Assembly: GCF_000784355.1 (NCBI RefSeq)
Contig: NZ_KN360928.1
Span: 16,642 to 67,691, forward strand
DNA length: 51,050 bases
Reading direction: 5' to 3'
Source of the DNA: Methanolacinia paynteri
GTDB taxonomy: Archaea; Halobacteriota; Methanomicrobia; Methanomicrobiales; Methanomicrobiaceae
Position numbers and translations under genes: made by a program. How positions within the stretch are numbered: the stretch's first letter is position 1; each line of letters begins with the position of its first letter. Positions 7,501 through 47,026 of the stretch are shown here, piece by piece. The notes under the pieces are model-generated. The model was given only the letters and a program-made list of their open reading frames with translations. It did no database searches and had not been told where the DNA came from.

Positions 7501-7510
7501 GGTCAGTCCG

Positions 7511-8176: not shown

Positions 8177-8183
8177 ATCTCTC

Positions 8184-8189: not shown

Positions 8190-8230
8190 CCCCTGCCGAT
8201 GCGATTTCAACCCGCGGTCAGGGCAGGAAA

Positions 8231-8240
8231 ATATTTATAT
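8231..8240 (+). promoter_or_regulatory. TATA box of the CruF-like gene
   Basis: ATATTTATAT about 55-64 bases before the ATG at 8295 implies a transcript start near 8260 and a leader of about 35 bases containing the GGGGTGG ribosome binding site. Confidence 0.5.
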
Positions 8241-8294
8241 CAAAGAAACAGTCTGGAACTGTAAAGGCTGTAAAATTAATGGGGTGGCTTGAAT

Positions 8295-9173: not shown

Positions 9174-9212
9174 TTTTTAAACCTTTAACTGTACATAATT
9201 TACCTGACAGAT

Positions 9213-9779
9213 ATGAAAAAAGAGAGTGAAGAGAGTAAAACGAATGGCAATAATAAGGCCCTGGAGCTGAGAAAAAAAGTCCTCGATCTTGCCGGGCCGA
9301 ATGGCAAAAGCATACTGGATATCGGGGCGGGGCCTCTTGCGATATTCGCCGTAAAGAAGTACGACTGCACGGTCACGTCCGTCGATATCGACAGGGAGAA
9401 GATCGAGACATGGAGAGAAAAGGCGGAGGTGGAGGGTGTATCCGACAGGATCACATTTAAAGAGGAGGATGTCACGGCTCTTTCTTTTTCCGATGACGAG
9501 TTTGACATGTCACTCTGCTTCGGCTCCCTCCATCACATTGCCCCGGGCGACAGAAGGAAGGCGGTCCTGGAGATCTCGCGTGTAGCCAGCAGGCGGATCG
9601 TGATCTCCGATTTCACCACCGAAGGGCTGCCGGAGATTCACCCGGGGGGAGAGTTCGAACCCGTGAACTTCGACCACCTGAAGGAGATCCTTGAAAGCAA
9701 AGGGTCCCTTGAAATAATCCCGCTGGAAAAGATGATGGTTTATATCGTTGAAAAAAGGAAAGGGCCGGAAGGGAAATAG
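9213..9779 (+). CDS. Class I SAM-dependent methyltransferase
   Basis: The 188-residue protein shows motif I at residues 34-40 (ILDIGAGPLA), an acidic motif II ending TSVDID, and CFGSLHHIAPGDR, the motif IV region of UbiE/type-11 methyltransferases. This binds S-adenosylmethionine; the acceptor is unknown. A Lys/Glu-rich N-terminus precedes the fold. The gene stands alone, with an AT-rich promoter region from 9170, and converges on the UPF0210 gene. Confidence 0.85.
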   Translation: MKKESEESKTNGNNKALELRKKVLDLAGPNGKSILDIGAGPLAIFAVKKYDCTVTSVDIDREKIETWREKAEVEGVSDRITFKEEDVTALSFSDDEFDMSLCFGSLHHIAPGDRRKAVLEISRVASRRIVISDFTTEGLPEIHPGGEFEPVNFDHLKEILESKGSLEIIPLEKMMVYIVEKRKGPEGK

Positions 9780-9780
9780 A

Positions 9781-9820
9781 CCGGGGCCAGGCTCCGGCTT
9801 ATCACGATTTTTATTTTTTT
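9781..9820 (+). terminator. Hairpin plus T-run between convergent genes
   Basis: CCGGGG (9781-9786) can pair with CTCCGG (9792-9797, one G-U pair) and is followed by a T-rich run at 9808-9820. It lies directly after the methyltransferase stop and touches the stop codon of the convergent UPF0210 gene. Confidence 0.55.
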
Positions 9821-11183
9821 AATTCCTGAAGCTGTGGATGGGTGCGGGGATGCGTCCGCCGCGGTTGATGAAATCTTCGCAGCCGAACTTGTTCACTTTC
9901 TGGACCGGGGCATGGCCGAGGAGCCCACCGAACTCCACGGTGTCTCCGACGTCCTTTCCGATAACAGGAACGAGGCGGACGGCGGTCGTCTTCTGGTTGA
10001 TCATTCCTATCGCTGCCTCGTCTGCGATTATCCCGGATATAGTCGTGGCGGGTGTGTCCCCCGGTATTGCGATCATGTCGAGACCTACGGAGCATACGCA
10101 GGTCATGGCTTCGAGTTTTTCGATGGTGAGTGCACCGCGGTTTACGGCATCGATCATCCCCTGATCCTCGCTTATGGGGATGAATGCACCGGAAAGACCT
10201 CCGACGAACGAACTTGCCATAACCCCGCCCTTCTTCACCTGGTCGTTTAGGAGAGCAAGGGCGGCGGTGGTTCCCGGTGCACCGACAGACTCAAGGCCCA
10301 TCTCTTCGAGAATCTCGGCGACGCTGTCTCCTACCGCAGGGGTGGGTGCAAGGGAGAGGTCGACGATCCCGAACGGAACGCCGAGCCTGGCGGACGCCTC
10401 CTGTGCGACGAGCTGGCCGACGCGGGTGACCTTGAATGCGGTCTTCTTGACGGTCTCGCAGAGGACCTCGAAGTTTTCTCCCCGGATTCCTTCGAGTGCA
10501 TGCTTGACGACGCCCGGACCGCTTACGCCGACGTTGATTACCGCGTCGGCCTCCGATACCCCGTGGAAGGCCCCGGCCATGAACGGGTTGTCGTCGGGTG
10601 CGTTGCAGAAGACGACGAGTTTCGCACACCCGAGGGAGTTGTCGCCCTTCGTCGCTTCGGCCGTCTCCCTGACGATCTCTCCCATGAGTTTTACGGCGTC
10701 CATGTTGATCCCGGTCTTCGTGGAACCGATGTTTACCGAACTGCATACCCTTTCGGTGGAGGAGAGTGCGGCGGGAATGGAGCGGATGAGTTTTTCGTCG
10801 GTGGGGGTCATTCCCTTCGAGACGATGGCGGAGTATCCGCCGAGGAAGTTGACGCCGGTATCCGCCGCTGCCTTGTCGAGCGTCTTTGCAACAGATACGA
10901 AATCCTCCGTGGATTTGCATGCCTGCCCTGCGACGAGTGCGATGGGGGTTACGGAGATCCTCTTGTTTACGATCGGAATCCCGTATTCGAGCTCGATCTC
11001 CCTTCCGACGGGGACGAGGTTCTTTGCGATCCGGGTGATCTTGTCGTATATCTTCCGGTTCAGGGCATCAAGATCCGAATCGACACAGTCGAGAAGGCTG
11101 ATGCCGAGGGTGATCGTCCTGACGTCAAGCTTCTCCTGCTCGATCATCTTGTTCGTCTCGTTTACCTCGAAGATGTTTATCAT
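9819..11183 (-). CDS. UPF0210/DUF711 (PFL-like) family protein
   Basis: The 454-residue protein matches the UPF0210 family (often annotated PFL family or DUF711): [14 protein letters not shown] near the N-terminus, [35 protein letters not shown], and a long conserved [22 protein letters not shown] region. The length is normal. The biochemical role is unknown despite a solved fold related to pyruvate formate-lyase-like barrels. The family is almost always encoded just after a small ACT-domain protein, as here (8-base gap), implying amino acid sensing or shared function. Confidence 0.9.
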
Positions 11184-15206: not shown

Positions 15207-16163
15207 TTAAATTTTATGTATTCCTCCTTCATTTACATAAAAATGAATGCTTCTCATACACGTAATCATTAACAATATAATTTCGGCAGCGGAATCCTTT
15301 TCAATAATCCAATGATCTAATGACAATTTATGAACCTTATGAATAGCTGGGTTTCTGAAAGTTCCTATAAAACTGCACATTTTTTGATGTTCGGTGAGAA
15401 TTACTTTAATCTTCTTTGATCCAAGTCTCTGTCCAATTTCATCTATACCATTAGCATCTGTTAAATCAATCCCTTTTTGATTACCGACTCTTCTAAGATA
15501 TGATTCAAAGGCACCAGCGGCATCATCAATCGCATTTGAGGGATTATTAGATATTTTTATTAAAGAATCACAAAGTAATTTTCTTTCAGGATCAATGATG
15601 TTAGCATAACAATTTTGTCCTAATTTATCGGAAAGGAAAATTTCAGCTGATATTTGATCATTGATAGTGTTGATTACTTTATTTATATTAGAATATTGGG
15701 TTTTTGAGGACGGAACTATTTTTAAAATCTCTTCTTTATTTAGACCACTAATACCAATATATTTACAAAAATTATTCATTGTTTTTATAATTATTCGAGG
15801 ATTTGCATCTATATCAAAGACTACTTTTGTTTTTCTTACAGCTTCTTCAGGATTTTCATCATTTAGAATATAATCACAAATTAGGATAAACGGTTTATAA
15901 TGGAAAAGAGCCTCTTTAAAAATTACAGTATAATCTCCATTTAGATGTTTTATCAATGAAGAACAATTAGGGGATAATTTAATTAATCCATTTTCAGTTA
16001 AAAAAAAATTTAGTTGGTTACCCATGACAATTACTCTTCTTATAGATTCTTTACCAACTTTAAGATAGTTACAAAGATATCCTATATCACCCTCTTTTTT
16101 TGAGAGGGCTTCGATACATTGAACAATTGCCTTTGCAGATATTTCCGGAATTGCGTACTTCAT
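15207..16163 (-). CDS. HEPN/Abi-C-like protein, candidate defence effector
   Basis: The 318-residue protein shows no name-giving family by eye in its first 200 residues, which look helical with a winged-helix-like start. Residues 205-318 resemble the abortive infection C-terminal/HEPN class: NAIDDAAGAFESYLRRVG, then R270-N-P-A-I-H275, an R-x4-H motif as in HEPN ribonucleases, and a final helix ending CMRSIHFYVNEG. HEPN proteins of this type are often RNases in toxin-antitoxin or abortive infection systems. The gene is very AT-rich (14 of 60 G+C in the row at 15541), unlike its neighbours, and starts 4 bases after the partner gene. Function is inferred. Confidence 0.6.
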   Translation of the reverse strand: MKYAIPEISAKAIVQCIEALSKKEGDIGYLCNYLKVGKESIRRVIVMGNQLNFFLTENGLIKLSPNCSSLIKHLNGDYTVIFKEALFHYKPFILICDYILNDENPEEAVRKTKVVFDIDANPRIIIKTMNNFCKYIGISGLNKEEILKIVPSSKTQYSNINKVINTINDQISAEIFLSDKLGQNCYANIIDPERKLLCDSLIKISNNPSNAIDDAAGAFESYLRRVGNQKGIDLTDANGIDEIGQRLGSKKIKVILTEHQKMCSFIGTFRNPAIHKVHKLSLDHWIIEKDSAAEIILLMITCMRSIHFYVNEGGIHKI

Positions 16164-16167: not shown

Positions 16168-17049
16168 TTAGGGATTATTTATTTTCTCTTTTAACTTTAA
16201 AATATTCTCAGAGATCTTATCTATATCGCTATTTTCATCGATTGTGACATTTAGATTTATATTAATTTCACCTGAAATAAAAGATTGACCTTTATTAATT
16301 GTAGAAGGTAAAAAATCATTTTTATGAATTGGGTTACTACTCTCATTTCTAGGAGAATCTATTTTTTTTTCTAAACTTTCCTTTTGGGCATTCTCTTCTA
16401 ATGATCTTTTCTCTTTTTCAGGACTCTTTACATCAAGAGAAGGATTTTCTGAGTTTATAGATTCTTTAGGATTGATTAAAAGATGATAATTATTTGTATT
16501 CTCATTTACTCCAATTATTTTACCATATTCTAAAAATTTTATAAGATTATTTATTTGAGATTGATTGGATTGATCAGCTTGAGCACATTTTCCAATACTT
16601 CGAACTAAGTCATCTTTACTAATTTCTGGGGTCATTTGAAAAATTTGAATTGCATGTTTTCCAAACCAAGTATTGAGCAATATTTTACCAAATGCAATTT
16701 CCGCTTCCGGTTGATCCCACTCTAATATATTAAAATAATCCACAACCTCAGATATTGGTTTATATTTACCTCTTTCACTTTCTTCAGTGAGACCAATTTG
16801 GTTAAAAAAGCTCAAAACACCACTAACACTGACTTCATGTAATTGAGCAAAGGGAGCAATGTCCGCATATGATACAAAATTATTCCCTTTATTACTACCA
16901 ATATTTAATGCTTTTAAAACAACTAAATGATTTTCAAACGAGGACTTCCGAAATGGAATTGGATACTTCAATATTTGTTTAGGACTTCTTTTTCGACCTT
17001 TCTTTTCTTCTTTAGGAGATTCAGTTAGGGAAGTATCTTCATCCATCAT
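16168..17049 (-). CDS. Uncharacterised partner protein with winged-helix-like segments
   Basis: Not a family I recognise with certainty; it resembles DUF5343-type proteins. From ATG 17049 it has 293 residues. An extension to 17121 (TTG) is open but would run through the inferred promoter. Residues 1-30 are charged and low in complexity, 35-195 are a folded region with two possible winged helices (NFVSYADIAPFAQLHEVSV and KDDLVRSIGKC...LIKFLEYGKI), 200-255 are a Lys/Glu/Ser-rich linker, and the end (ININLNVTIDENSD) is a strand plus helix seen in defence-linked proteins. The TATA at 17081-17092 fits this start. Upstream partner of the HEPN-like gene. Confidence 0.6.
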   Translation of the reverse strand: MMDEDTSLTESPKEEKKGRKRSPKQILKYPIPFRKSSFENHLVVLKALNIGSNKGNNFVSYADIAPFAQLHEVSVSGVLSFFNQIGLTEESERGKYKPISEVVDYFNILEWDQPEAEIAFGKILLNTWFGKHAIQIFQMTPEISKDDLVRSIGKCAQADQSNQSQINNLIKFLEYGKIIGVNENTNNYHLLINPKESINSENPSLDVKSPEKEKRSLEENAQKESLEKKIDSPRNESSNPIHKNDFLPSTINKGQSFISGEININLNVTIDENSDIDKISENILKLKEKINNP

Positions 17050-17080
17050 GATCACTATGATATTAAAATAATTCTCAAGA

Positions 17081-17092
17081 GATAATAAAAAT
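17081..17092 (-). promoter_or_regulatory. TATA box of the AT-rich two-gene operon
   Basis: On the minus strand TATTTTATTATC lies about 39 bases before ATG 17049, implying a transcript start near 17062 and a leader of about 13 bases with a short GTGATC ahead of the ATG. Confidence 0.45.
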
Positions 17093-17253
17093 ACCGGGGT
17101 ACAATTTTTCATTGATCCCAACCGAAAAATCTAATAATAGTGATTTTTATCCCGTTTAATCTCTAAGATCCATTTGTACTCAAAAATACCGAACTAAGAA
17201 CTGTTTTGTGATAGTCGCCGCTCGTCCCTCTATTCGACCTGAAGGAAAAAAAA

Positions 17254-34691: not shown

Positions 34692-34758
34692 CGTTATCGG
34701 TCTTTTTTCGATAAACAGGCACTTACCGGATCAGGCCGTACTTACGGAAGTGACATCA

Positions 34759-35631
34759 ATGTTCAGTTTTAAAACCGACCAGAAGACATACGAGATCGCC
34801 GGCACCAGGGTAGGTGGCCAGCCGGGCGAAATTCCAACGGTTCTTGTGGGGAGTATGTTCTATACAAAACACAAGATCGTAACAGACGAGAGAGCGGGGA
34901 AATTCGACAGGGATGCCGCCGAAGCCCTGGTAAGAAAGCAGGAAGAGCTCGGAGAAAAGACCCGCAACCCGGCCTTAATCGACATCGTGGCTTCATCGTC
35001 GGAATCGATCCTCAGGTACATCGATTTTGTTGCAGGGATGAATGAAAAACCGTTCTTCATCGACTCTGCAAGTGCGGATGTCAAGATTGCCGCGATTGAA
35101 TACGCAAAAGAGATCGGTCTCGAAAAAAGGATCGTCTACAACTCCGTCTCTATCGAGACAAAAGATAACGAATACGCGGCATTAAAGGCAAACGGGATCG
35201 AATCGGCGATCCTCCTCTCGTTCACCAGGGACATCATGAGCAGCAGGGCACGGGCGGAGACCGTGGATAAACTCGCACCCAAAATGGAAGAATCCGGTAT
35301 CAAAAATATCCTCGTCGATACCTTCGTAATGGACGTCCCGAGCCTCACGCCATCCGGCAGGGCGACGATAGAGATCAAGAAGAAGACCGGATATCCATGC
35401 GGGACCGCGGCACACAACGCGATATCGACATGGAAGGGCCTTAAGAATATGCTTGGTAAAGAGGGAGTGAGATCTGCGGATATCGTTGCAAATATCATGC
35501 CGGCAATCTTCGGCGCAGACTTTCTGCTCTATGGCCCGGTCGAGAACTGCGAATCGGTCTTCCCCGCGGCCTTCACTATCGATACGACCTACAGGTATGC
35601 CGCGAGGATGAAAGAGACCATCGATGTCTGA
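34759..35631 (+). CDS. MtrH-like methyltransferase (MtoA/MtvA-like, methyl-corrinoid to tetrahydropterin)
   Basis: The 290-residue protein resembles MtrH, the subunit that moves a methyl group between tetrahydromethanopterin and a corrinoid: AGTRVGGQPGEIPTVLVGSM, FFIDSASADVKIAA, YNSVSIETKDNEY and AHNAISTWKGLKN. It is separate from any mtrA-G operon, and lies with a corrinoid protein, an activator and a UroD-family protein. In Mto/Mtv systems for methoxylated compounds this homolog (MtoA, MtvA) is methyltransferase II, passing the methyl from the corrinoid protein to the pterin. ATG 34759 is preferred over GTG 34750. It overlaps the next gene by 8 bases. Confidence 0.85.
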   Translation: MFSFKTDQKTYEIAGTRVGGQPGEIPTVLVGSMFYTKHKIVTDERAGKFDRDAAEALVRKQEELGEKTRNPALIDIVASSSESILRYIDFVAGMNEKPFFIDSASADVKIAAIEYAKEIGLEKRIVYNSVSIETKDNEYAALKANGIESAILLSFTRDIMSSRARAETVDKLAPKMEESGIKNILVDTFVMDVPSLTPSGRATIEIKKKTGYPCGTAAHNAISTWKGLKNMLGKEGVRSADIVANIMPAIFGADFLLYGPVENCESVFPAAFTIDTTYRYAARMKETIDV

Positions 35632-37462
35632 GAAAGATCACGACGTCAGGGTCACCTTCGAACCCGACGGAAAGACGATCGAGGACTCTTCAGGGACATT
35701 GCTCGAACTTGCACAGGCTGCAAACACGAGCCTTCGCGGGGACTGCGGCGGGGCTGGAGTCTGCGGCAAATGCAGGGTCCAGATAGTAAAACTATACGGA
35801 AAGGTATCCGAACCGACGGAGAAGGAGAGAGACCACCTGAAGGATGAAGAGATCGCCGCCGGCTACAGGCTCGCCTGCCAGACGAAGATTCTCACGGGGA
35901 AATGCACGGTTCACATTCCACCGGCAAGCAGGACAGCGAAGCGGGAGATCTCCGGGCTTGGGCTGGACGAGGACGTCCCCCTCGGCCCGGCCGCCAGGAA
36001 GATCCACCTAAAGCCGGAAAGGGCGACATTCGGGGACCCGAGACCTGACATTCAAAGGCTCAAGGACTCACTCCAGACAGGAGACGAACTGAATTTTCCG
36101 CTTTCGGTCCTTTCCGAGCTCCCCGCAGTTCTGCGCAGTTCCGGCTGGAACATAACCGCAACGCTGTGGAAGGACAAACTTGTCTCAGTGGAGCCGGAGG
36201 ACACCTCGAAAGAATGCTTCGGGATAGGGGTCGATATCGGTTCGTCCAAGATCATCTGCCATCTCGTAGATCTCTTGACAGGAGAGACCATTGCAAAGGC
36301 GAATGGCGAAAACCCGCAGATCATGTACGGCGAGGATGTAGTATCGAGGATAACATACGCATCGAAGTCGCCGGAGAAACTGAAAAAGCTCCAGTCGCTT
36401 GCAACGGGAACCATAAACTCGCTCATAGACGAGGCGTGCAAAGAGAGTGGAAAGTCACCTGAAAATATCTACGAGATGGTATTTGTAGGAAATTCGGTAA
36501 TGCACCATCTCGTCCTCGGGATAATCCCGAAGTACATCGGTGTCGCACCGTTCGTCCCGGCTGTAACCGGTATGGTGAGCTTTCCCGCAAAGGATATCGG
36601 GATCAATATCAACCCCGACGGGATGGTAACCGCAATTCCCCTCATAGGCGGATTTATAGGAGCGGATGCGGTTGCAAACATCCTCATATCAGGGATCTAC
36701 GAAACTGAAGATCTCTGCCTCCTGATCGATATCGGGACAAACTCGGAGATCCTTCTCGGAAACTCCAAAGAGATCATGGCATGCTCGGCCCCCTCCGGGC
36801 CGTCGTTTGAGGGAGCGCACATAAGTTCCGGGATGAAGGCGGTCAGCGGAGCGATAGAGAGCGTGAAGATCATCGACGGAAAGCTCCTCTACTCCACGAT
36901 CGATGATGAAAAACCCAGAGGAATCTGCGGCAGCGGCATAATCGATCTCGTCGCAGAGCTATATACGGCCGGAATAATCACAAGGACAGGTAAATTCACG
37001 GATCTCAGTCATCCCCGGATCGTAGTCCGGGACGTTCCCAGGTTCATCGTCGCAGGAAAGGAAGAGAGCGGGATCGACAACGACATATCGGTCAGCGAAA
37101 AGGACATCAACGAGTTTCTGCTCGCAAAGGGATCGCTTAAGGCCGGCTGGAAGATACTTGCAGACAAGTGGGGAGTTGCTCCTTCCGAGATAGACAGGAT
37201 CTATCTCGCTGGTTCCTTCGGCACGCATGTAAATATCGACAACGCGATAGTTATCGACATCCTCCCGGACATCGACAGGGAGAAGATAGTTTTCGCCGGG
37301 GAAACCGCGGTCGGGGGGGCGAAGATCGCACTCAAATCACTGGAAAAGAGAAATGAACTGAAAGAAATCCTGAAAAGGGTCAGGTACGTGGAGCTATCGG
37401 TAGAAGATTCGTTCCAGAAGGATTACCTCGCGTCCATCCCGATATCCGGCCTTAAAAGCTGA
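35624..37462 (+). CDS. [2Fe-2S]/ASKHA corrinoid-activating protein (RACo/MtoD-like)
   Basis: This 612-residue protein reactivates Co(II) corrinoid proteins by ATP-dependent reduction to Co(I). The N-terminus is a [2Fe-2S] ferredoxin with C41-x5-C47-x2-C50 and C85 (CGGAGVCGKC ... LAC). A linker and middle domain follow, then the ASKHA/DUF4445 ATPase with GIGVDIGSSKI, LLIDIGTNSEI and CSAPSGPSFEGAHISSGM. The single [2Fe-2S] makes it a bacterial-type RACE/RACo protein; methanogen RamA has two C-terminal [4Fe-4S] clusters instead. It is translationally coupled to the MtrH-like gene and ends at a T6 run. Confidence 0.9.
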   Translation: MSEKDHDVRVTFEPDGKTIEDSSGTLLELAQAANTSLRGDCGGAGVCGKCRVQIVKLYGKVSEPTEKERDHLKDEEIAAGYRLACQTKILTGKCTVHIPPASRTAKREISGLGLDEDVPLGPAARKIHLKPERATFGDPRPDIQRLKDSLQTGDELNFPLSVLSELPAVLRSSGWNITATLWKDKLVSVEPEDTSKECFGIGVDIGSSKIICHLVDLLTGETIAKANGENPQIMYGEDVVSRITYASKSPEKLKKLQSLATGTINSLIDEACKESGKSPENIYEMVFVGNSVMHHLVLGIIPKYIGVAPFVPAVTGMVSFPAKDIGININPDGMVTAIPLIGGFIGADAVANILISGIYETEDLCLLIDIGTNSEILLGNSKEIMACSAPSGPSFEGAHISSGMKAVSGAIESVKIIDGKLLYSTIDDEKPRGICGSGIIDLVAELYTAGIITRTGKFTDLSHPRIVVRDVPRFIVAGKEESGIDNDISVSEKDINEFLLAKGSLKAGWKILADKWGVAPSEIDRIYLAGSFGTHVNIDNAIVIDILPDIDREKIVFAGETAVGGAKIALKSLEKRNELKEILKRVRYVELSVEDSFQKDYLASIPISGLKS

Positions 37463-37474
37463 TTTCAGTTCAAC

Positions 37475-37480
37475 TTTTTT
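37475..37480 (+). terminator. Oligo-T terminator after the activator gene
   Basis: Six T residues 13-18 bases after the stop separate the two halves of the methyltransferase cluster into two transcription units, though readthrough is possible. Confidence 0.4.
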
Positions 37481-37533
37481 AAATTATAACCACGGAATTT
37501 GTTTTTTGAGCCCGCAAAGAGGCTGCAACAGAG

Positions 37534-37600
37534 ATAAATTATATCTGGAGCCCCGCAAGAGTACCAATTATCTCACTCATTTGTGAGAGGGGTATAAGAA
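37534..37600 (+). promoter_or_regulatory. Promoter and leader hairpin of the corrinoid protein gene
   Basis: A TATA-like ATAAATTATATC (37534-37545) would start a transcript near 37568. The leader then immediately folds: TCTCAC (37571-37576) pairs with GTGAGA (37583-37588), and the 3' arm overlaps the GAGGGG ribosome binding site (37587-37592). Confidence 0.5.
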
Positions 37601-38239
37601 ATGACAGACGTGAGAGAAGATTTTATAAATGCACTCGTCGATCTCGACGAAACTAAATGCATCGACCTTGCAAAGCAGAGAGTCGAAGCCGGAGAAGACC
37701 CCTTCACTATCCTGGAAGACCTCAGAGAGGCTACCGACAGAATAGGCAATATGTTCGAAGAGGGCCGGTTCTTTGTCTCGGACCTCATGATGGCGGGAGA
37801 GATCCTCAAACAGATAATGGTGGTGCTCAAGCCCGCATTCGGAGACAGGAAGATCGAAAGCAAAGGAACGATCGTCATCGGAACAGTCGAAGGCGACGTC
37901 CACGATATCGGAAAGAACATCGTCACCGCACTTCTTGAAGCTGAAGGGTTCACGGTAGTCGATCTCGGTGTCGACCAGCCGCCCGAGGCGTTCATCAATG
38001 CGATCAGGGAGAACAAACCGCTCGTCGTAAGCCTTTCAGGGCTCCTGACCGAGGCTATCGATTCGATGAAGAAGACCGTCGATGCAATCAAAGCCGCAGG
38101 CCTCCGCGACAATGTGAAGATAATCGTCGGAGGAGGAAGGACCGACGAAGAGGCGAAGGAATACATCGGCGCAGACGACTGGTCCGACGATGCAACAAGC
38201 GGCGTTAGGAAGATTAAGAAACTGGCCGGGGTGGCGTAG
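37601..38239 (+). CDS. Methyltransferase-associated corrinoid protein (MtoC-like)
   Basis: This 212-residue protein has a four-helix N-terminal B12-binding_2 domain (residues 1-85, with FTILEDLREATDRIGNMFEEGRFFVSDLM-type helices) and a Rossmann B12 domain with EGDVHDIGKNI, in which His101 of D-x-H-x-x-G replaces the lower cobalt ligand, plus GLLTEAIDSMKK and IIVGGGRTDEE. It carries the methyl group between methyltransferases I and II. The UroD-family gene begins in the base directly after its stop codon, so the two are cotranscribed and probably partners. Confidence 0.93.
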   Translation: MTDVREDFINALVDLDETKCIDLAKQRVEAGEDPFTILEDLREATDRIGNMFEEGRFFVSDLMMAGEILKQIMVVLKPAFGDRKIESKGTIVIGTVEGDVHDIGKNIVTALLEAEGFTVVDLGVDQPPEAFINAIRENKPLVVSLSGLLTEAIDSMKKTVDAIKAAGLRDNVKIIVGGGRTDEEAKEYIGADDWSDDATSGVRKIKKLAGVA

Positions 38240-39496
38240 ATGGAGCCCGCAGAACTCTACCGCCAGAGACTTGACAGGTTAGAGGCGGTAATCAAAGGAA
38301 AAGAGCCGGACCGTGTTCCGATAACGGCCATGGTAACAATATTCCAGGGCCATTATGCCGGATACAAGGCAAAGGACGTCATACTCGATGCTGCGAAGAA
38401 CAAGGATGCAACCCTTAAGATGGCGGCCGATTTCGATTTCGATTCGATAACCGCCCTTACCGGACTTGAAGGAACGATCATGAGTATGACATTCCTTAAA
38501 TCGGCTCCCGAACTCATTCCCGCCGCAAGATTCCTGCAGGCCCAGTACCACCCGATTCTAAAGGATGTCTACACAAAATGGCCTGGAATCGAACTGGAAG
38601 ACGACGCCCACCCGCAGTTTATCGGCAAGGAGATCATGAAGGTCGAAGAATACGACCAGTTCATCGAAAACCCCACAGAATACCTGAACCGTGTTGCACT
38701 GCCGAGGATCTGCACCGGGCTTGCTGAACCGGGATCCCCGGAATCTAACGCTGCATTCTCAAAATACGGCGCCCAGCTTGCCGCTTTCGGTGCATCGCAG
38801 GGCGATCTGATAGGATCTCTCGCAGCGATGGGGTACCCGACATTTCCGACGGCATGGAGCTATTCGCCGCTTGATGTACTCGGAGATTTCCTTCGCGACA
38901 TAAAGAACATAGTCATTGATCTCTTCAGGTACCCGGATAAAGTGAAGCAGGCTGTGGAAGCCCTTACACCTATGCTCATAGAGTCGGCAAGGATAACGGG
39001 AACCGTCCCGCCGGAGATGAAGAAGGCGCTCGGCACCGATATCGTCGAATGCTTCTTCCCGCTGCACTTAAACGAGTATCTCAACCCGAAACAGTACGAC
39101 GAGTTCTACTGGCCGGCACTGAAAAAAGTGCTCGAAGAAACTATCGCAATGAGACAGACACCGTACATCCTCTTCGAGGGGCGTCATGACGCACATCTCG
39201 AAACACTCCTCGAACTTCCGAAAGGAAAGGTGATCGCCGTCTTCGACAAAACAGACCCGAGAAAGGTGAGAGATGTCGTCGGCGATCATGTAATTCTCTC
39301 GAGCGGCCCGCCCAATTCGCTCCTTATCGGGGGAACGCCCCAGAAGGTCGACGACTACATGAAGAGTATGCTGACCGACTGCAAGGAAGGCGGAATGATG
39401 ATCTACCCGGGAGTCGACGGCGGAATCTCAGGAGATGCCAGACCTGAAAACGTTCAGGCGATGATCAAAGCCGTGAAGAAATACGGAACATACTGA
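38240..39496 (+). CDS. UroD-family methyltransferase I (MtoB/MtvB-like), substrate unknown
   Basis: The 418-residue protein belongs to the uroporphyrinogen decarboxylase superfamily (COG0407), which includes methanol/methylthiol-specific MtaA/MtsA and O-demethylases. The start RQRLDRLEAVIKGKEPDRVPITAM-type segment and SYSPLDVLGDFLRDIKNI are typical of the group. In place of the H-x-C zinc motif it has F312-E-G-R-H-D-A-H-L-E321, then ELPKGKV; the His and Glu side chains could bind zinc. It lies directly after the corrinoid protein gene, so it probably transfers a methyl group from an unknown donor to that protein. Coenzyme M as acceptor (MtaA-like role) is a less likely alternative because an MtrH-like gene is present. 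Confidence 0.82.
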   Translation: MEPAELYRQRLDRLEAVIKGKEPDRVPITAMVTIFQGHYAGYKAKDVILDAAKNKDATLKMAADFDFDSITALTGLEGTIMSMTFLKSAPELIPAARFLQAQYHPILKDVYTKWPGIELEDDAHPQFIGKEIMKVEEYDQFIENPTEYLNRVALPRICTGLAEPGSPESNAAFSKYGAQLAAFGASQGDLIGSLAAMGYPTFPTAWSYSPLDVLGDFLRDIKNIVIDLFRYPDKVKQAVEALTPMLIESARITGTVPPEMKKALGTDIVECFFPLHLNEYLNPKQYDEFYWPALKKVLEETIAMRQTPYILFEGRHDAHLETLLELPKGKVIAVFDKTDPRKVRDVVGDHVILSSGPPNSLLIGGTPQKVDDYMKSMLTDCKEGGMMIYPGVDGGISGDARPENVQAMIKAVKKYGTY

Positions 39497-39536: not shown

Positions 39537-39622
39537 CCTGCCGGAGATGCGAAACGATTCTCCCGCGGCATAAAATTCAAATTACTTCCAAGAAAGAACT
39601 GAAATTTTCAGAAAATCCGACA

Positions 39623-39633
39623 TGTATAAATAC
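39623..39633 (+). promoter_or_regulatory. TATA box of the arginine decarboxylase operon
   Basis: TGTATAAATAC, a near-consensus archaeal TATA box, predicts a transcript start near 39655. Confidence 0.6.
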
Positions 39634-39734: not shown

Positions 39735-42056
39735 ATGAACCCCGAGGAGAAACTCCAGGTAGGAGTTATCGACGCGAACGTTCATACCGACACTCCGGCA
39801 GGAAGGGCTGTAACAAAAATTATCGAGGACCTGGCTGAATACGGAATCGAGGTCACTGTACTTGTATCTACAGAAGATGCAAGGACAGCTCTCTCGAACC
39901 TGCCGTCGGCAGACTGCATAATGGTGAACTGGAACGTCGGGGAATCGGATGATAGTCCTGCCGGAAAGAAGGGTGCCTCAGGGGTTGATGCAAACCTAAT
40001 CATATCCGAGATCAGGAAACGAAACGAGGACATCCCGATCTTCCTCATGGGCGAACCTACGAGCGAACCGCCGAAAAAGCTCCCTATCGAGATGATTAAA
40101 GGGATCAACGAGTTTGTCTGGGTGATGGACGACACCGCCGAATTCCTTGCGGGACGAATAAGAGCAGCGGCGAAGAGGTACAGGGATCGGCTCCTTCCCC
40201 CGTTCTTCGGCGAACTGGTGAACTTCTCCCGCGACTTCGAATATTCATGGCACACGCCCGGCCATGCAGGCGGAACTGCGTTCAGGAAATCGCCGGCAGG
40301 AAGAGCATTCTTCAATTTCTTCGGCGAACAGCTGTTCAGGTCCGACATATCGATTTCAGTAGGCGAACTCGGTTCTCTCCTCGACCATTCCGGCCCGGTA
40401 GGAGAGGCAGAAAGATACGCTGCCAAAGTATTCGGTGCGGATTCTACCTATTTTGTGACCAATGGAACATCGACATCGAACAAGATCGTCTTCTTCGGGA
40501 GGGTCACCGCAGACGATATTGTCCTCGTCGACAGGAACTGCCACAAATCTGCGGAGCATGCACTGACCATGACCCATGCAGTCCCGGTATACCTCATTCC
40601 GACAAGGAACAGGTACGGGATCATCGGTCCGATACATCCCGAGGAGTTCTCGCCTGAAACCATCAAAGCGAAGATCGCGGCCTCGCCGCTCACAAAGAAA
40701 CTGAAAAACAAGACTCCAATCCACTCGATAATTACGAATTCAACCTACGACGGCCTCTGCTATCACGCGGAATGGGTGGAGAACGAGCTCGGAAAGAGTG
40801 TCGACAGCATCCACTTCGACGAGGCGTGGTACGGATATGCACGCTTCAATCCGATGTACCGCAACCGCTTCGCGATGAGAGACGGTGCGGAAAATCCCGA
40901 AGGACCCACGGTCTTTGCAACGCAGTCGACTCATAAACTGCTCGCTGCTCTCTCACAGGCGTCGATGGTTCATGTGAGAAACGGAAGGGTGCCGATCGAA
41001 CACTCGAGGTTCAACGAGGCGTTCATGATGCACTCCTCTACCTCCCCGCTATACACCATAATAGCATCATGCGATGTCTCTTCCAAGATGATGGACGGGG
41101 CGTCCGGAAGGATGCTCACACAGGAGCCGATCGAGGACGCGATCAGATTCAGGCGTATGATGGCGAGGATCAACAGGGAGATAGGCACCGGAAAAACACC
41201 GAACGACTGGTGGTTCGGAATGTGGCAGCCTGATTTCGTAACTGATCCCGCTACGGGAAAGAAGATGGACTTCGCCGACGCCGGCATTAACCTGCTGGGC
41301 AAAGAGCCGTCATGCTGGGTTCTCCACCCCGAGGACAGCTGGCACGGGTTTACTGATCTCCCTGACGACTACTGCATGCTCGACCCGATAAAGGTGACAG
41401 TACTCATGCCGGGAGTAAACGACGACGGAACCCCGGCCAACTGGGGAATACCCGCGGCAATCGTCGTCAAGTTCCTGGACACGAAAGGAATCGTCAACGA
41501 GAAGTCTGGCGACTACAACATACTCTTCCTCTTCTCCATGGGAATAACCAAGGGCAAGTGGGGAACGCTGGTTACAGAGTTGTTCGAGTTCAAGCGCCAC
41601 TGGGAGGAGGAGTCTCCGCTGGAAGAGGTCTTCCCCGATCTCGTGAAAGAATGGCCGGAGAGGTACGGTGGGATGACACTACCCGGACTGGTCAACGAGA
41701 TGCACGATTACATGAAGAAGACAGAGCAGGGCAAACTTCTCCAGGAGGCCTACGAGAAACTTCCCGAACAGGTCATGACATACGCGGAAGCCTACAGGTG
41801 CCTCGTCCGCGACGAAGTGGAGCATGTCGCAGTCTCGGATATGGAGAACAGGATCGTCGCAACCGGAGTGTTCCCGTATCCCCCCGGAATTCCGGTTCTC
41901 GCACCCGGCGAATCCGCGGGAAAGAAGAAAGGAGCGATCATCAAATACCTCCTTGCACTGCAGGAGTTCGACAAGAAGTTCCCGGGATTCGATCACGACA
42001 TCCACGGCGTTGAGAACGTAAACGGGAAGTACATGATATACTGCCTTAAGGAGTGA
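39735..42056 (+). CDS. adiA: Biodegradative arginine decarboxylase, AdiA type
   Basis: From ATG 39735 (GGGGGGTAC upstream) the 773-residue protein aligns from memory with E. coli AdiA along its length: an N-terminal receiver-like wing domain (VGVIDANVHTDTPAGRAV), SWHTPGHAGGTAFRKSPAG, VVDRNCHKS-like VDRNCHKSAEHAL, NSTYDGLCY, HFDEAWYGYARFNP, and the PLP lysine K401 in FATQSTHKLLAALSQAS. It converts arginine to agmatine plus CO2, consuming a proton; lysine or ornithine cannot be fully excluded. A TTG at 39681 with its own GGGGGTAC is an alternative start adding 18 residues. An antiporter gene follows after 2 bases. Confidence 0.9.
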   Translation: MNPEEKLQVGVIDANVHTDTPAGRAVTKIIEDLAEYGIEVTVLVSTEDARTALSNLPSADCIMVNWNVGESDDSPAGKKGASGVDANLIISEIRKRNEDIPIFLMGEPTSEPPKKLPIEMIKGINEFVWVMDDTAEFLAGRIRAAAKRYRDRLLPPFFGELVNFSRDFEYSWHTPGHAGGTAFRKSPAGRAFFNFFGEQLFRSDISISVGELGSLLDHSGPVGEAERYAAKVFGADSTYFVTNGTSTSNKIVFFGRVTADDIVLVDRNCHKSAEHALTMTHAVPVYLIPTRNRYGIIGPIHPEEFSPETIKAKIAASPLTKKLKNKTPIHSIITNSTYDGLCYHAEWVENELGKSVDSIHFDEAWYGYARFNPMYRNRFAMRDGAENPEGPTVFATQSTHKLLAALSQASMVHVRNGRVPIEHSRFNEAFMMHSSTSPLYTIIASCDVSSKMMDGASGRMLTQEPIEDAIRFRRMMARINREIGTGKTPNDWWFGMWQPDFVTDPATGKKMDFADAGINLLGKEPSCWVLHPEDSWHGFTDLPDDYCMLDPIKVTVLMPGVNDDGTPANWGIPAAIVVKFLDTKGIVNEKSGDYNILFLFSMGITKGKWGTLVTELFEFKRHWEEESPLEEVFPDLVKEWPERYGGMTLPGLVNEMHDYMKKTEQGKLLQEAYEKLPEQVMTYAEAYRCLVRDEVEHVAVSDMENRIVATGVFPYPPGIPVLAPGESAGKKKGAIIKYLLALQEFDKKFPGFDHDIHGVENVNGKYMIYCLKE

Positions 42057-42058
42057 CC

Positions 42059-43498
42059 ATGAGCGAAGAAACAAAGACAGGCAAGGGAGTAAAGAAAGTC
42101 TATCTTGGCATATTCGCCCTTGCGATGATAAACGTCGCCGCGGTGCTGAGCATCAGGAACTTTCCGTCGATGGCAATCTACGGGTGGTCGTGTATCGGGT
42201 GGTACATCATCGGAACGATACTCTTCCTTATACCGATCTCCCTTGCGGGTGCAGAACTTGCAACAGGCTGGCCCGAGGGCGGTGGTGTCTACGCGTGGGT
42301 AAAGCAGGCGTTCGGGGAGAGAGACGGATTTATCGCGCTTTTCTGCGAATGGTCGAACAACCTCGTCTGGTTCCCGACCGTCCTGTCGTTCATCGCAGCA
42401 ACGCTCGCATTCGCCCTTACACCGAATCTTACATCGAGCCCACTGTATATGTTCACCGTGATGATGATCGCATTCTGGGGAACTACCGCAGTCGCCTACT
42501 TCGGCGAAAATGCCTCGACAAAACTCAGCAACTTCGGTGTAGTGCTCGGCAGCATCATCCCTGCGATAGTGATCACACTTCTCGGGATCTGGTGGTTTGC
42601 ATCCGGGCAGCAGCTGGTTCTCCCTGAATTTTCACTTGAACAGATCGCACCGGAGATAAATCTCGATACACTGCCTTTCTTCGCAACGGTTGTTCTTCTC
42701 TTTGCAGGTATGGAGATGGCGGGCTTCCACGCTCTCGAGGTCAAAAACCCGCAGACCGATTTCCCAAAGGCGATCGGCATCTCGGCAGTGATAATATTCT
42801 TCTGTACGGTTGCGGCGACACTCGCAATCGCGTTCGTGATCCCTGCAAACCAGCTGAGCCTTGCATCGGGCGTTATGCAGGCGATACAGTACTTCTTTGA
42901 TTCCGCAGGGCTGTCGGCTTTCGTCGGGCCGATGGCGTTGTTGATCACTATCGGCGGTGTGGTAAATCTTGCCGCATGGCTCATAGGACCCGCAAAGGGT
43001 CTCGGGGTCATTGCGGAAGAGGGAAACATGCCGCCAATGTTCGACCGGACGAACAAATACGGAGCTCCGGTTGCGGTTCTGGTCACGCAGGCGCTCATCG
43101 GTTCAGTAATCTCGCTCCTGTATGTGTTCCTGCCGTCCGTCAACCAGGCATACTGGATACTGTCGGCTATGACCGTGGAGCTGCTCTGTATCGTATACTT
43201 CCTGGTATTTGCAGCTCTCATCAAACTCAGGTACAGCCAGCCAGATAAGCCCAGGCCGTTCAAGATACCCGGCGGGATGCCCGGAGTCTGGATCGTCGGG
43301 GGCATGGGAGCTGTAGGAGTCGTATTTTCGTTCATCGTAGGACTTATGCCGCCTTCATACTACGACAATACAATCGGCTATGTCGTAGCGGTTCTCTTCG
43401 GAACGTTCGTCCTCGCAGTTCCGCCTCTTATCTTCCTCAAACTCAAGAAACCAAGCTGGACAAAAGCTGTAAACAAGGAGGTGGCACAGGATGAATGA
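42059..43498 (+). CDS. APC-family amino acid/amine antiporter (GadC/AdiC-like)
   Basis: The 479-residue protein has about 12 membrane helices and a GadC-like start: LAMINVAAVLSIRNFPSMAI, ISLAGAELATGWPEGGGVYAWVKQAFGERDG, EWSNNLVWFPTVLSFIAA. It most resembles glutamate/GABA-type antiporters but its place 2 bases behind AdiA argues for arginine in, agmatine out exchange. Together they would remove protons from the cytoplasm or yield a membrane potential. AAGGAG precedes ATG 42059. The last 8 bases overlap the next gene. Confidence 0.88.
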   Translation: MSEETKTGKGVKKVYLGIFALAMINVAAVLSIRNFPSMAIYGWSCIGWYIIGTILFLIPISLAGAELATGWPEGGGVYAWVKQAFGERDGFIALFCEWSNNLVWFPTVLSFIAATLAFALTPNLTSSPLYMFTVMMIAFWGTTAVAYFGENASTKLSNFGVVLGSIIPAIVITLLGIWWFASGQQLVLPEFSLEQIAPEINLDTLPFFATVVLLFAGMEMAGFHALEVKNPQTDFPKAIGISAVIIFFCTVAATLAIAFVIPANQLSLASGVMQAIQYFFDSAGLSAFVGPMALLITIGGVVNLAAWLIGPAKGLGVIAEEGNMPPMFDRTNKYGAPVAVLVTQALIGSVISLLYVFLPSVNQAYWILSAMTVELLCIVYFLVFAALIKLRYSQPDKPRPFKIPGGMPGVWIVGGMGAVGVVFSFIVGLMPPSYYDNTIGYVVAVLFGTFVLAVPPLIFLKLKKPSWTKAVNKEVAQDE

Positions 43499-43937
43499 AA
43501 AGCAGGAGGTTGTAATTATCGCGGTAATACTCGTACTTGCGATTATACTGCTGCCGGTCTCAGTTGCGGTATTAGCTCACGGTACCGACCCGTACCGTAT
43601 CATCGAGGGGAACCCTATAGAGATCGCAGCAGAGGCTGCGGGCCTGGTCATCTGCAACGAAACGGAGACGTCATGGAATATTGCCGGACTCACCAAAGGA
43701 ATGACTTACACGATCTCCGACAACTGCGCAAACCCGACTGAGACGATAAGGCTCGATGTATTGTCATTCGACAGTTCCGAATCGAGGGATGCGGCGATAC
43801 TCGCGTATCACTCGAATACGATAGGAAAGAACCACCCTCACGGAAGCCTGATCGTATTAGGGCAGTACCTGATCTTTGTCAATTATTCGGGAAGCTCGCT
43901 CCTGGACACGATCTCGAAAGAACTGGGGAAATTATAG
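43491..43937 (+). CDS. Small membrane-anchored protein of the decarboxylase operon
   Basis: I do not recognise this 148-residue protein. Residues 8-29 form one membrane segment (VVIIAVILVLAIILLPVSVAVL); the rest, presumably outside the membrane, is a small alpha/beta domain with SDNCANPTETIRLDVLSF and YHSNTIGKNHPHGSLIVLGQY. AAGGAGGTGG gives a strong start and it overlaps the antiporter gene, so it is surely expressed with it. It could be a regulatory or chaperone subunit of the antiporter. A T8 run follows at 43947-43954. Confidence 0.75.
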   Translation: MNEKQEVVIIAVILVLAIILLPVSVAVLAHGTDPYRIIEGNPIEIAAEAAGLVICNETETSWNIAGLTKGMTYTISDNCANPTETIRLDVLSFDSSESRDAAILAYHSNTIGKNHPHGSLIVLGQYLIFVNYSGSSLLDTISKELGKL

Positions 43938-43946: not shown

Positions 43947-43954
43947 TTTTTTTT
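43947..43954 (+). terminator. Oligo-T terminator of the decarboxylase operon
   Basis: Eight T residues 10-17 bases after the stop, at the convergent junction with the sensor kinase gene. Confidence 0.55.
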
Positions 43955-46820
43955 AACAGCCGGATATTACGCGGTATTTTCCTTCCGGAACAGTCATTTC
44001 AAATCTTACACCCCTGCCCTGGAGGCCACATTCTCTTATCTCTATACCGGATATCGCGAGGATCTCCCTGGCCAGGAAGAGACCTAAGCCGGTATTTTTG
44101 CCGAACCCGCGCTCGAAGATCAGTTCCTTGTCGTCATCCGGGATCCCTGTTCCGTCGTCCTTCCAGACTATACTGTATCCGCCGTTTTCGGAACGCATGC
44201 ATGAGACCTCCACCCGTGAAACCGACTCACCGCCATGCCTCAAGGTATTGTCGAGAAGCGTGTCGAAGACCTTCCTCAGGATGGGGTCCGCTAAGATCTC
44301 TATATCGCAGCCGGTTATTTCAAAAGGAAGAGAACTCTGGCTTTTCACAACAGCGAGAATTTCAGCAAGGTTCTGCCATACAGGCACATGCGAACCGAGG
44401 TTCTCGTACTCTCTTGTGAATTCGATCTGCTTCTGGATCTTTTCAAGAAGTTCATGGAGGGTATCTATGTACTGGCCGTACTCCGGATCTTCAGGGTTTT
44501 TCAGCAGTTCGATGAAACAGTAAGCAGCCATGACGCTGTTCAGGATGTCATGACGTGTAATGCTGTAGAGGAGTTTCAGCTTGTGGTTTGCATTCTCAAG
44601 TGTTTCCCTGATATTTTTAACATCCCCGACATCATCGAAGAATCCCAGGACAATAAATGAGCCGTCCTTATTACTCTGTGAGATGCAGGCATTGATTTTC
44701 AGGTGCTTCTTTTTCGTCTCACCTTTTTTTATGTATTCAAAATTAAAGTCCTCGAGATAACCCTTCTCCAGGAGAGTATCGGTCATAAGATCGCTTCCGG
44801 CAGGGTAGGAATGCAGAATATCTTTCAGGGATCCTGGACTGCCTGTAACTTCTTCCGGAGAGGAGAAACCGAGAATTTTCGCCCCGGTTCCATTAAGGCT
44901 AAGAAATTCACCTTCCGACGTGCTGGTGAATATACCGATGGGAGCATTTTCGATCAGGTTCCGGTATTTCTCTTCGCTCTCCCTGAGTTCCCTGTGACTA
45001 TTTTCCAGTTCGTCGAAGCCCTGGCGCAGTTCTTCATCCATTGCCGCAAGCTGTTCATACGCAGAAGTCAGTTCTTTATTCCTGTTTATCAGGGCTTCCT
45101 CTGATTCTTTTTTGGCTGTGATATCCCGGATCGATTCGATGGCACCGGTGATTTTACCGCCGGAATCATAGAGTGGTGTTGCGATGAACCAGAGATAGGC
45201 GCCTTTGCCATCGTATAAATACGGAATCTCGAACTCGGATATGAGCCTGTTCCCGTCGGTTATGACTGAAGGATAATGAGATTCACCAAGAAGATCGCTG
45301 TCCAGGACCATATCGATAAGAATGGGCTTTCTTTCCCTGTAGAAGGGCAGGGCATACTCGTAATTTTCCCTGCCGACGATATCTTCGGACCGGATCCCAG
45401 TCATCTCCTCGATAGCCCGGTTCCATGCAATAACCCTGCCGTGATCGTCTATTACGAACGTTGCATCGGGAAGGAAATCGATGATGTCCATCAGCTCCTG
45501 CCTGCTCTCTCTTAATGCATCTTCGGCACGCTTCTGTTCGGTAATATCGGAAACCATGGCAAACGAACCTCTGAAGTTCCCGCTTTTTCCAAAGATAGGA
45601 GTTGATTTCACCTTCATCCACCTGATCTCCCCGTCCTTTCTCATCATTCTCCGGACATATAGACCGGTTGCACCCCCTTTCCTGTGCTCGACCTCCGAAA
45701 GGTGAGCTTTTTGATCCCCTTTATGGATGAACGATGAGATCTTTCTCCCGAACATCTCCCCTGTGGAGTATCCAAGCATCTCAGCCATTTTTTTATTTAC
45801 GAAGGTGGTCATCTCCCTGTGGTCCATCTCCCAGATTCCTTCCTCCGCCGTCTCGACAATGCGCCTGAATTTTTCCTCGCTCTCACGGAGGAGAATTTCT
45901 TTTTGCCCCAGTTCTTCGTAATTCTGCCTGAGCTCCTCTTCGGCCGCCTTGAGCTGTTCATATGCCCCCTGGATTTCGTCGTTTCTGCTCTCTATGGTCT
46001 TCAGGTGCATCCTGAGCTCTTCATTGAGCTCGGCGAGTTTTCTGTTGCTTTCCTGAAGTTCATCTTCGGCTGCCTTTCGTTCAGTGATCTCGTCAAGTAT
46101 GATCAGCAGGGCCGGCTTCTCTTCCCAATGAATAAGAGTGGAGTGAATCTTCACCCAGTGTGTATTCCCGGAAGAATCGAGGATCCTGAATTCATACTCA
46201 TCGGGAGCACTTTTTCCTGCGATTCTGCGTTCATAACGGCCGAGTACCATCTCACGATCATCGGGGTGGATTAAATCGTCAATAGATTTTCCGACCAGCT
46301 CACCCGGGGGAACATTGAGAATGGAGGAAAAACGGGGATTGGAAAACCTGACCAGGCGGTCCTGTGCAATGAAGATCGCTTCGTTCGCTTTTTCAACGAG
46401 CAGGCGGTACTTCTCTTCGCTGTCCCTTAGTGCTGCTTCGGTCTGCCTTAACGCGATCGACTGTCTCACCTTGTGAACAAGCTCTACAAACTGGGAGTTG
46501 GGTTCTCCACCCTTCTGGATGTAGAAATCGGCTCCGTTTTCAAAGGCCTGGATTACAACCTCTTCCCGGCCTTTGCCTGTGAAAATAATGAATGGTATTT
46601 TGTTGCCTGAGGCCCGGATGGCCTTCAGGAGCTCGATACCGTCCATTTTGGCCATCTGGTAATCGGAGATAACCGCATCATATTTTCCGGTTTTCATCAG
46701 TTCAAGTGCAAAAACTGCGGATTCGGCTGTATCGACTGAAAAGTCACCGCTCTTTTCAATAAATATCCTTGCGAGTTCGAGAAGAACGGGTTCGTCGTCG
46801 ACATAAAGAATCTTTATCAT
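43953..46820 (-). CDS. Hybrid sensor: receiver domain, four PAS domains, histidine kinase
   Basis: From ATG 46820 (GGTGATC upstream) the 955-residue protein has an N-terminal receiver domain with phospho-acceptor Asp53 (ISDYQMAKMDG), four PAS domains at about 140-260, 335-450, 460-580 and 640-730, with coiled coils between (the repeated YEQLxAxxEELRQ segments), a dimerisation helix with H at about 755 (SITRHDILNSV) and an ATPase domain with DNTLRHGG and KDDGTGIPDDDKELIFERGF, GLGLFLAREI. No membrane segment is seen, so it is cytosolic. Such receiver-first kinases are expanded in Methanomicrobiales. Signal and target are unknown. Confidence 0.92.
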   Translation of the reverse strand: MIKILYVDDEPVLLELARIFIEKSGDFSVDTAESAVFALELMKTGKYDAVISDYQMAKMDGIELLKAIRASGNKIPFIIFTGKGREEVVIQAFENGADFYIQKGGEPNSQFVELVHKVRQSIALRQTEAALRDSEEKYRLLVEKANEAIFIAQDRLVRFSNPRFSSILNVPPGELVGKSIDDLIHPDDREMVLGRYERRIAGKSAPDEYEFRILDSSGNTHWVKIHSTLIHWEEKPALLIILDEITERKAAEDELQESNRKLAELNEELRMHLKTIESRNDEIQGAYEQLKAAEEELRQNYEELGQKEILLRESEEKFRRIVETAEEGIWEMDHREMTTFVNKKMAEMLGYSTGEMFGRKISSFIHKGDQKAHLSEVEHRKGGATGLYVRRMMRKDGEIRWMKVKSTPIFGKSGNFRGSFAMVSDITEQKRAEDALRESRQELMDIIDFLPDATFVIDDHGRVIAWNRAIEEMTGIRSEDIVGRENYEYALPFYRERKPILIDMVLDSDLLGESHYPSVITDGNRLISEFEIPYLYDGKGAYLWFIATPLYDSGGKITGAIESIRDITAKKESEEALINRNKELTSAYEQLAAMDEELRQGFDELENSHRELRESEEKYRNLIENAPIGIFTSTSEGEFLSLNGTGAKILGFSSPEEVTGSPGSLKDILHSYPAGSDLMTDTLLEKGYLEDFNFEYIKKGETKKKHLKINACISQSNKDGSFIVLGFFDDVGDVKNIRETLENANHKLKLLYSITRHDILNSVMAAYCFIELLKNPEDPEYGQYIDTLHELLEKIQKQIEFTREYENLGSHVPVWQNLAEILAVVKSQSSLPFEITGCDIEILADPILRKVFDTLLDNTLRHGGESVSRVEVSCMRSENGGYSIVWKDDGTGIPDDDKELIFERGFGKNTGLGLFLAREILAISGIEIRECGLQGRGVRFEMTVPEGKYRVISGC

Positions 46821-47026
46821 GAGGGTGATCACCGAATCCCTTTGTTGTAGAATAGGGGAAGGTTCTGTAATAAATTATCCTTGTTCCGGATAGCCGAATA
46901 TAACAAACGACATCAAATTTGACATAGATCGATTCCCGCATGTAAACCGTTAATGATTATATATTGCGGCTTATCAACCATATATTGTAAATCCATCCTT
47001 AAACGATCGGTTTCCGGAAATGAAGA

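Follow-up and report, generated by a model that had tools for sequence, protein, structure and literature searches.

An AdiA-type decarboxylase, a GadC-like exchanger, and a putative one-helix partner protein encoded together in the methanogen Methanolacinia paynteri

The three-gene locus

The 51,050 nucleotides of contig NZ_KN360928.1 of Methanolacinia paynteri analyzed here (the “window,” meaning this whole stretch) contain on the plus strand three consecutive open reading frames, which code for a pyridoxal phosphate (PLP)-dependent decarboxylase of the AdiA type (ADC), a GadC-like amino acid exchanger of the APC superfamily (ANT), and a small membrane protein with one predicted helix (TM1; Table 1). 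An amino acid decarboxylase paired with an antiporter is the textbook two-protein acid defence of bacteria. Here, methanogens have such a pair beyond their usual pyruvoyl enzyme, plus a third, unclassified protein following the exchanger. A preliminary description of this DNA had proposed an AdiA homolog with a receiver wing, a GadC-like antiporter coupled to it, and an unrecognised one-helix membrane protein overlapping the antiporter gene, and all of this was borne out. Three OKR domains of the decarboxylase scored above their Pfam cut-offs, the best NCBIfam models for the adjoining exchanger were those of GadC, and the third frame, overlapping the ANT gene by 8 bases, had no Pfam or NCBIfam family at an E value of 0.1.

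Table 1. Features of the three-gene locus and of a second decarboxylase cluster of the same genome; positions refer to the window unless a locus is named
Feature	Position	Strand	Remarks
Promoter-like box, archaeal type, CGACATGTATAAATA	39618..39632	+	About 100 bases 5' of the ADC start; candidate from the alignment of five same-family loci
Part of the promoter-like box, TATAAATA	39625-39632	+	
ADC, extended-form (winged) PLP decarboxylase, AdiA type, 773 aa	39735..42056	+	PLP lysine K401
ANT, GadC-like APC exchanger without a tail of C-plug length	42059..43498	+	ATG 42059; alternative start GTG 42053
TM1, one-helix membrane protein, 148 aa	43491..43937	+	Family without Pfam or NCBIfam entry
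Soluble domain predicted for TM1 residues 33-148, with a PknH/TiME-like fold	43587..43934	+	Probably extracellular
TM1 Cys 55 and Cys 79	43653-43655, 43725-43727	+	Probable disulphide
Run of eight T directly 3' of TM1	43947..43954	+	Read from sequence
Glutamate decarboxylase (GAD) and two GadC-type exchanger genes	L174 (G000:C42:42000-58000), 6222-10718	one strand	Own genome

The three frames were confirmed at the positions given by the preliminary description. The ATG of ADC is common to all five aligned same-family loci, and in front of it the promoter-like box (stretch CGA-AT-TATA-ATA) is almost unchanged across these loci, with the remaining upstream DNA diverged. The ATG of ANT, with AAGGAG ahead, is better placed than the alternative GTG, and a strong ribosome-binding site, AAGGAGGTG, precedes the start of TM1. 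Both here and in the relatives that were fetched, the decarboxylase gene overlaps or adjoins that of the exchanger, the genes flanking the triad differ from genus to genus, and the run of eight T after TM1 is a possible transcription end.

TM1 and its linkage to the exchanger gene

TM1 consists of one helix and a domain of about 115 residues. Homologues at an E value of 0.01 were present in 50 of the 232 genomes of the class. When 57 members were scanned against Pfam, no family matched more than five of them, and the best E value, 0.0092, came from a single member; a search of the PDB sequences with a TM1 profile gave four matches with E values of 0.19 or worse, which were regarded as chance. 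Neither an archaeal AdiA-exchanger operon nor a TM1 protein was found in the literature among the matches listed. M1, P22, G66, G70, Y73, F93, R99, and G124 are invariant in 40 of 40 operon copies, and the ratio of nonsynonymous to synonymous substitutions (dN/dS) of the sister pair is 0.15. Homologues, operon position, and dN/dS rule out that TM1 is an orphan or a spurious frame. One homologue lies on a 5-kb contig (QYQJ01000180.1) filed under a Bacteroidetes metagenome-assembled genome; its TM1 is 89% identical to one from Methanoregula, and the contig is probably mis-binned.

Orthologues of ANT scoring above 600 bits were found at 43 fetched loci, 42 of them with room downstream, and TM1 followed directly 3' of ANT in 38 of the 42. 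Partial ANT genes below 600 bits (L141 and L142, both with TM1) stand outside this count. Judged from the side of the decarboxylase, a tree restricted to ADC frames of more than 640 aa had 74 rows, and removal of five contig-end rows left 69 scored loci; broken or partial ADCs (L108, L109, L110, L116, L117, and L137 to L140) are outside the tree. ANT and TM1 were both present at 36 of the 69 loci, ANT only at 8, and neither at 25; TM1 never occurred at these loci by itself. Five of the 8 ANT-only loci have a diverged ANT (at most 48% identity) and three an orthologue. Two pairs of loci nested in triad clades (L097/L100 and L101/L102) are without both ANT and TM1, and in one genome (G150) the ADC frame is open, ANT is fragmented, and TM1 is a remnant.

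The same arrangement recurs outside the class. Among 237 genomes of a second class within the phylum, TM1 was found in 4, all with the order ADC, ANT, TM1 (the contig of G685 ends within TM1). A search of this second class with ADC found an AdiA-like gene in 14 of 179 genomes, the four triad genomes and ten more; neither ANT nor TM1 was found in the fetched stretches of nine of these ten (G615 left out). The preliminary description had named absence of the third gene from all other such loci as the outcome that would speak against its proposal, and the opposite was found, with TM1 after ANT in 38 of 42 loci and in four of four in the second class. As judged from gene content, TM1 goes with ANT rather than with ADC, a tie that suits the earlier suggestion of a subunit or regulator of the antiporter. 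A one-helix partner gene that is kept with the exchanger gene is what would be expected of a heteromeric APC transporter, and the most likely role of TM1 is that of an exchanger partner.

AlphaFold2 modelled the window TM1 with a mean predicted local distance difference test score (pLDDT) of 83.9 (57 rows) and a homologue of 23% identity from genome G479 with one of 83.5 (21 rows). In structural alignments, the window model matched TM1622 of Thermotoga (Z 7.7; 104 residues, 3.7 Å), the PknH ectodomain (Z 7.2; 114 residues, 3.8 Å), and TiME (Z 7.0; 114 residues, 3.6 Å), with unrelated rows from 5.6. The G479 model matched TM1622 (Z 8.0; 109 residues, 3.7 Å), PknH (Z 7.6; 118 residues, 3.5 Å), and TiME (Z 6.5; 115 residues, 3.4 Å), the last on a par with TT1751 (6.5) and a DUF302 protein (6.3). 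A viral fold library gave one TM1 match below 0.001, a Corynebacterium phage “lipoprotein” (E value 8.6e-4). On these models the domain likely has a PknH/TiME-like fold, which is no proof of kinship. Cys 55 and Cys 79 occur jointly in 8 of the 40 operon copies, 32 copies have neither, and no copy has just one; TM1 of the distant class carries both. Being kept or lost jointly suits a disulphide in an outer domain, and we infer from this cysteine pair, the lysine-rich N-termini of longer paralogues, and the fold that the domain faces outwards.

Proposed exchange cycle and alternative explanations

ADC is composed of a receiver-like N-terminal wing, a core, and a C-terminal OKR domain, with Pfam matches to OKR_DC_1_N of 82.6 bits, to OKR_DC_1 of 544.8 bits, and to OKR_DC_1_C of 161.6 bits, all above the cut-offs. 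Its K401 aligns with K386 of the Providencia Adc, the residue named in PMC8983666. Compared with PDB sequences, ADC scored 831 bits with the Providencia Adc and 810 with AdiA of Escherichia coli, the scores with LdcI and an ornithine decarboxylase being about 560 and 380; among NCBIfam models, arginine decarboxylase reached 930 bits, lysine decarboxylase 679 and 627, and ornithine decarboxylase 495. The far higher scores of the arginine decarboxylases in both comparisons favor arginine over lysine or ornithine, so that arginine would be the substrate of ADC.

AdiA-like genes (E value 1e-20) occur in 105 of the 232 genomes of the class, commonly without ANT, and the pyruvoyl arginine decarboxylase (PF01862) in 213 of them, the genome of M. 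paynteri included. The pyruvoyl enzyme presumably catalyzes the same reaction but is unrelated to ADC. The presence of both kinds makes the AdiA-type enzyme a second arginine decarboxylase in this cell, rules it out as a substitute for the pyruvoyl enzyme, and removes the contrast of a PLP enzyme instead of a pyruvoyl one, which the preliminary description had implied; agmatine for tRNA needs no AdiA here. Extended-form arginine decarboxylases are described in PMC8503589 from Proteobacteria and some Firmicutes, and one ancestral-form enzyme is given there as the verified archaeal PLP enzyme. The ancestral-form arginine decarboxylase of Methanomicrococcus blatticola is likewise a PLP-dependent enzyme of a methanogen, but it has 483 aa, is wingless, and was picked from genomes without the pyruvoyl enzyme (PMC8503589), whereas ADC of M. 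paynteri is a winged protein of 773 aa beside a pyruvoyl one.

ANT belongs to the Pfam family AA_permease_2, and its nearest solved relative is GadC (192 bits), followed by AdiC (59 bits), with weak matches to animal light chains (37-49 bits). The system thus resembles AdiA and AdiC of E. coli (AR3) in joining a winged PLP decarboxylase of the arginine type to an APC exchanger, and differs from it in the archaeal host, in the extra third gene, and in an exchanger that is GadC-like rather than AdiC-like (409 versus 57.5 bits with NCBIfam models, the cut-off of the AdiC model being 574). Unlike GadC, ANT has no C-plug. The GadC plug starts after residue 470 of 511, and ANT stops about 14 residues beyond the matching point; a C-terminal plug was found neither in ANT nor in 43 orthologues, all 44 sequences having short tails past the last helix. 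According to PMC3663535, GadC 1-470 is the plug-less form, and removal of the plug (the residues after 470) shifts the pH dependence of GadC by half a unit.

That ANT instead exchanges glutamate for gamma-aminobutyric acid (GABA) as the partner of a GAD is weakened by a separate cluster of the same genome (Table 1). Its GAD scored 667.8 bits, above the curated cut-off of 380.4, and one of the two exchangers beside it was scanned and reached the curated GadC level (686.6 of 640 bits). Only 6 of the 232 genomes of the class have a GAD. With a GadC of curated level next to the GAD, ANT need not serve glutamate and, as far as the sequences indicate, is unlikely to be the glutamate/GABA exchanger of this cell.

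Combining these data, we propose a virtual proton pump that runs on arginine and agmatine, with TM1 as a dedicated outer partner of the exchanger, a reading of the sequences to which a probability of roughly 0.58 is assigned. In this cycle, of which we infer the substrate, the direction, the topology of TM1, its contact with ANT, the gating, and the role of pH, ANT would import arginine, ADC would decarboxylate it and consume one cytoplasmic proton, and ANT would swap the agmatine out for the next arginine, so that one positive charge would exit per turn. The outcome may be acid defence or a proton-motive force. The helix of TM1 would be positioned in the membrane beside ANT and its PknH-like domain outside, where TM1 may gate, stabilise, or pH-tune ANT, possibly replacing the C-plug that ANT does not have. 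Should TM1 prove to be a working partner, a prokaryotic exchanger would have an accessory subunit, as animal exchangers of the superfamily are known to have, and the small TM1 domain would offer a way to study how such exchangers are gated from outside. These methanogens would also have a defined route to trade arginine for proton export.

A more specific version of this proposal, put forward only tentatively, is a prokaryotic heteromeric APC exchanger, in which a plug-less GadC-like protein exchanges arginine for agmatine and TM1, as its stoichiometric outer subunit, gates it or tunes it to pH. The heavy chains of animal APC transporters carry a large glycosidase-like outer domain. As in 4F2hc or rBAT with its light chain, an APC exchanger would be paired with a protein of one helix and an outer domain, and ANT has its weak light-chain matches, but the TM1 domain is small and dissimilar to the glycosidase-like domain, and the pairing of ANT with TM1 is a proposal. 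If the two-subunit version is true, TM1 would play in archaea the part that the heavy chains play in animals, though built from an unrelated PknH-like domain, and the TM1 family at large, together with the DUF308/HdeD-like neighbours described below, would be an archaeal surface module for acid response. TtfA, an accessory of MmpL3, also has one N-terminal helix and a soluble part and is required by a transporter (PMC6593404), and so gives a precedent for a transporter being served by a protein of this build; MmpL3 belongs to another transporter family, and TM1 has no sequence match above chance to any PDB chain. The PDB protein TiME may be TtfA, to judge by its residue range (26-214), which would fit.

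Several results weigh against the arginine/agmatine pump with TM1 as partner and need to be considered with the alternatives that they favor. ADC remained under every curated NCBIfam cut-off (the arginine model being best, with 930 of 1167 bits), and ANT remained below the GadC equivalog cut-offs (409 of 650, 408 of 640, and 213 of 673.5 bits). The score of ADC, together with an exchanger that is not AdiC-like, may mean that the decarboxylase prefers lysine, ornithine, or another amino acid and that ANT exchanges the corresponding pair; this is quite improbable in view of the distance by which the arginine decarboxylases outscored the lysine and ornithine enzymes. An operon for agmatine or polyamine supply or for arginine scavenging, and not for proton export, would agree with an arginase/agmatinase-family gene in the genome, with the frequent AdiA-like genes that have no ANT, and with the possible biosynthetic role discussed for the Providencia Adc (PMC8983666). 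It is nevertheless unlikely, because the pyruvoyl enzyme is already there, an exchanger that returns the product is useless for net supply, and no match to the agmatine deiminase family was found in the genome.

The linkage of TM1 has exceptions as well. TM1 is missing at four of the 42 ANT-orthologue loci (L076 of G139, L092 of G135, L099 of G170, and L137 of G169). Of 6 independent pairs, a mean of 4.1 had TM1 changing in the same direction as ANT and none had it changing in the opposite one, which was not significant (sign test, p 0.06 to 0.25), and a correlation of rates at 34 loci failed to favor ANT over ADC as the partner of TM1 (bootstrap difference -0.06, interval -0.37 to 0.30). A short gene that evolves faster than those beside it (close pairs gave a median dN/dS of 0.23 for TM1 in 56 pairs including a decayed copy, 0.07 for ANT in 72, and 0.08 for ADC in 57) and is dispensed with at four loci could be a hitchhiker with no part in transport. 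Such a role is very improbable for a gene that kept its position and strand at all four ANT-bearing loci of the second class, while the surroundings of the triad vary by genus.

There are also diverged TM1 paralogues without an adjoining ADC or ANT, 17 genes at 15 loci (L143-L157), which mean that TM1 is not always tied to an exchanger. The script counted 18 genes at 16 loci, and L158 was left out as apparently the contig-split partner of L075 from the same genome. In some genomes (for example, G225, G128, G200, and G207), such solitary paralogues coexist with an operon copy elsewhere. The solitary genes, six of them head-to-head with a DUF308/HdeD-like gene, and the resemblance of the TM1 fold to the extracellular domain of the kinase PknH would suit a sensor or stress protein of the cell surface, co-expressed with ANT but not bound to it, the remainder being an ordinary AdiA/antiporter acid system. 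This explanation is doubtful but has to be taken seriously; within the ADC loci, TM1 occurs only alongside ANT and decays with it, which argues against a mere surface sensor or stress protein.

The fold assignment also leaves room for doubt. All fold matches of TM1 had Z scores of 8 or less. Foldseek gave weak matches for the window model (best E value 0.022) and for the G479 model placed aspartate-kinase regulatory domains on top (E value 0.011, root mean square deviation 14 Å), with TiME and PknH absent among the best 50 rows. For the G479 assignment, the VIA alignments were weighted above the Foldseek ranking.

A possible link to acid comes from neighbouring genes in relatives. HdeD of E. 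coli has a role in acid resistance, and some Methanoregula favor acid; Methanoregula is the label of 7 of 12 triad contigs. A DUF308 (HdeD-like) gene stands head-to-head with the ADC operon at L073, L078, L083, L086, L087, and L089 (6 of the 36 loci with the triad) and with a TM1 gene standing alone at L149, L150, L152, L153, L155, and L157 (6 of 17), in the latter case 160 to 213 bases apart. All eight DUF308 genes scanned were above the Pfam cut-off, and six of the eight had weak matches below the cut-off to the HdeD acid-resistance model. DUF308 repeats are frequent (22 genomes had 5 to 19 matches each, an estimated two to six proteins per genome), so that one such neighbour says little; twelve head-to-head pairs say more, and these stem from few lineages and not from twelve independent events. 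A DUF308 head-to-head pair was not found in the window of M. paynteri itself. The DUF308/HdeD-like neighbours in relatives and the GAD-GadC cluster in the own genome support the acid link indirectly. Against it stands the sister species Methanolacinia petrolearia, renamed from Methanoplanus petrolearius, for which a pH optimum of 7.0 and a growth range of 5.3 to 8.4 are given.

Neighbouring genes and other observations

Upstream of the triad, positions 34750-39496 of the window contain a methyltransfer cluster of an MtrH/MtgA-like protein, a RACo/AcsV-like activator, a corrinoid protein, and a URO-D-type methyltransferase, possibly a system for glycine betaine-like or other methyl compounds in a supposed hydrogenotroph. 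These genes are ruled out as members of the operon: when 99 fetched loci with ADC or TM1 were compared, each over at most about 4 kb upstream of ADC, matches were found in that of the sister species (L061) alone, and ADC has a promoter-like box of its own.

The convergent neighbour on the minus strand (43953-46832) codes for a receiver-PAS-histidine kinase, and the triad of L061 and L062 is likewise bordered by kinase-like frames from that cluster. In the second class, three loci of family f22 (L215, L216, and L219) have two AdiA-like decarboxylase genes in tandem, with the same orientation and about 1.1 to 2.1 kb between them, and neither ANT nor TM1. Between positions 15001 and 17000 of the window, the G+C content declines to 0.29 compared to about 0.5 overall; this region, with the reverse-strand frames 15207-16163 and 16168-17121, is possibly an acquired island.

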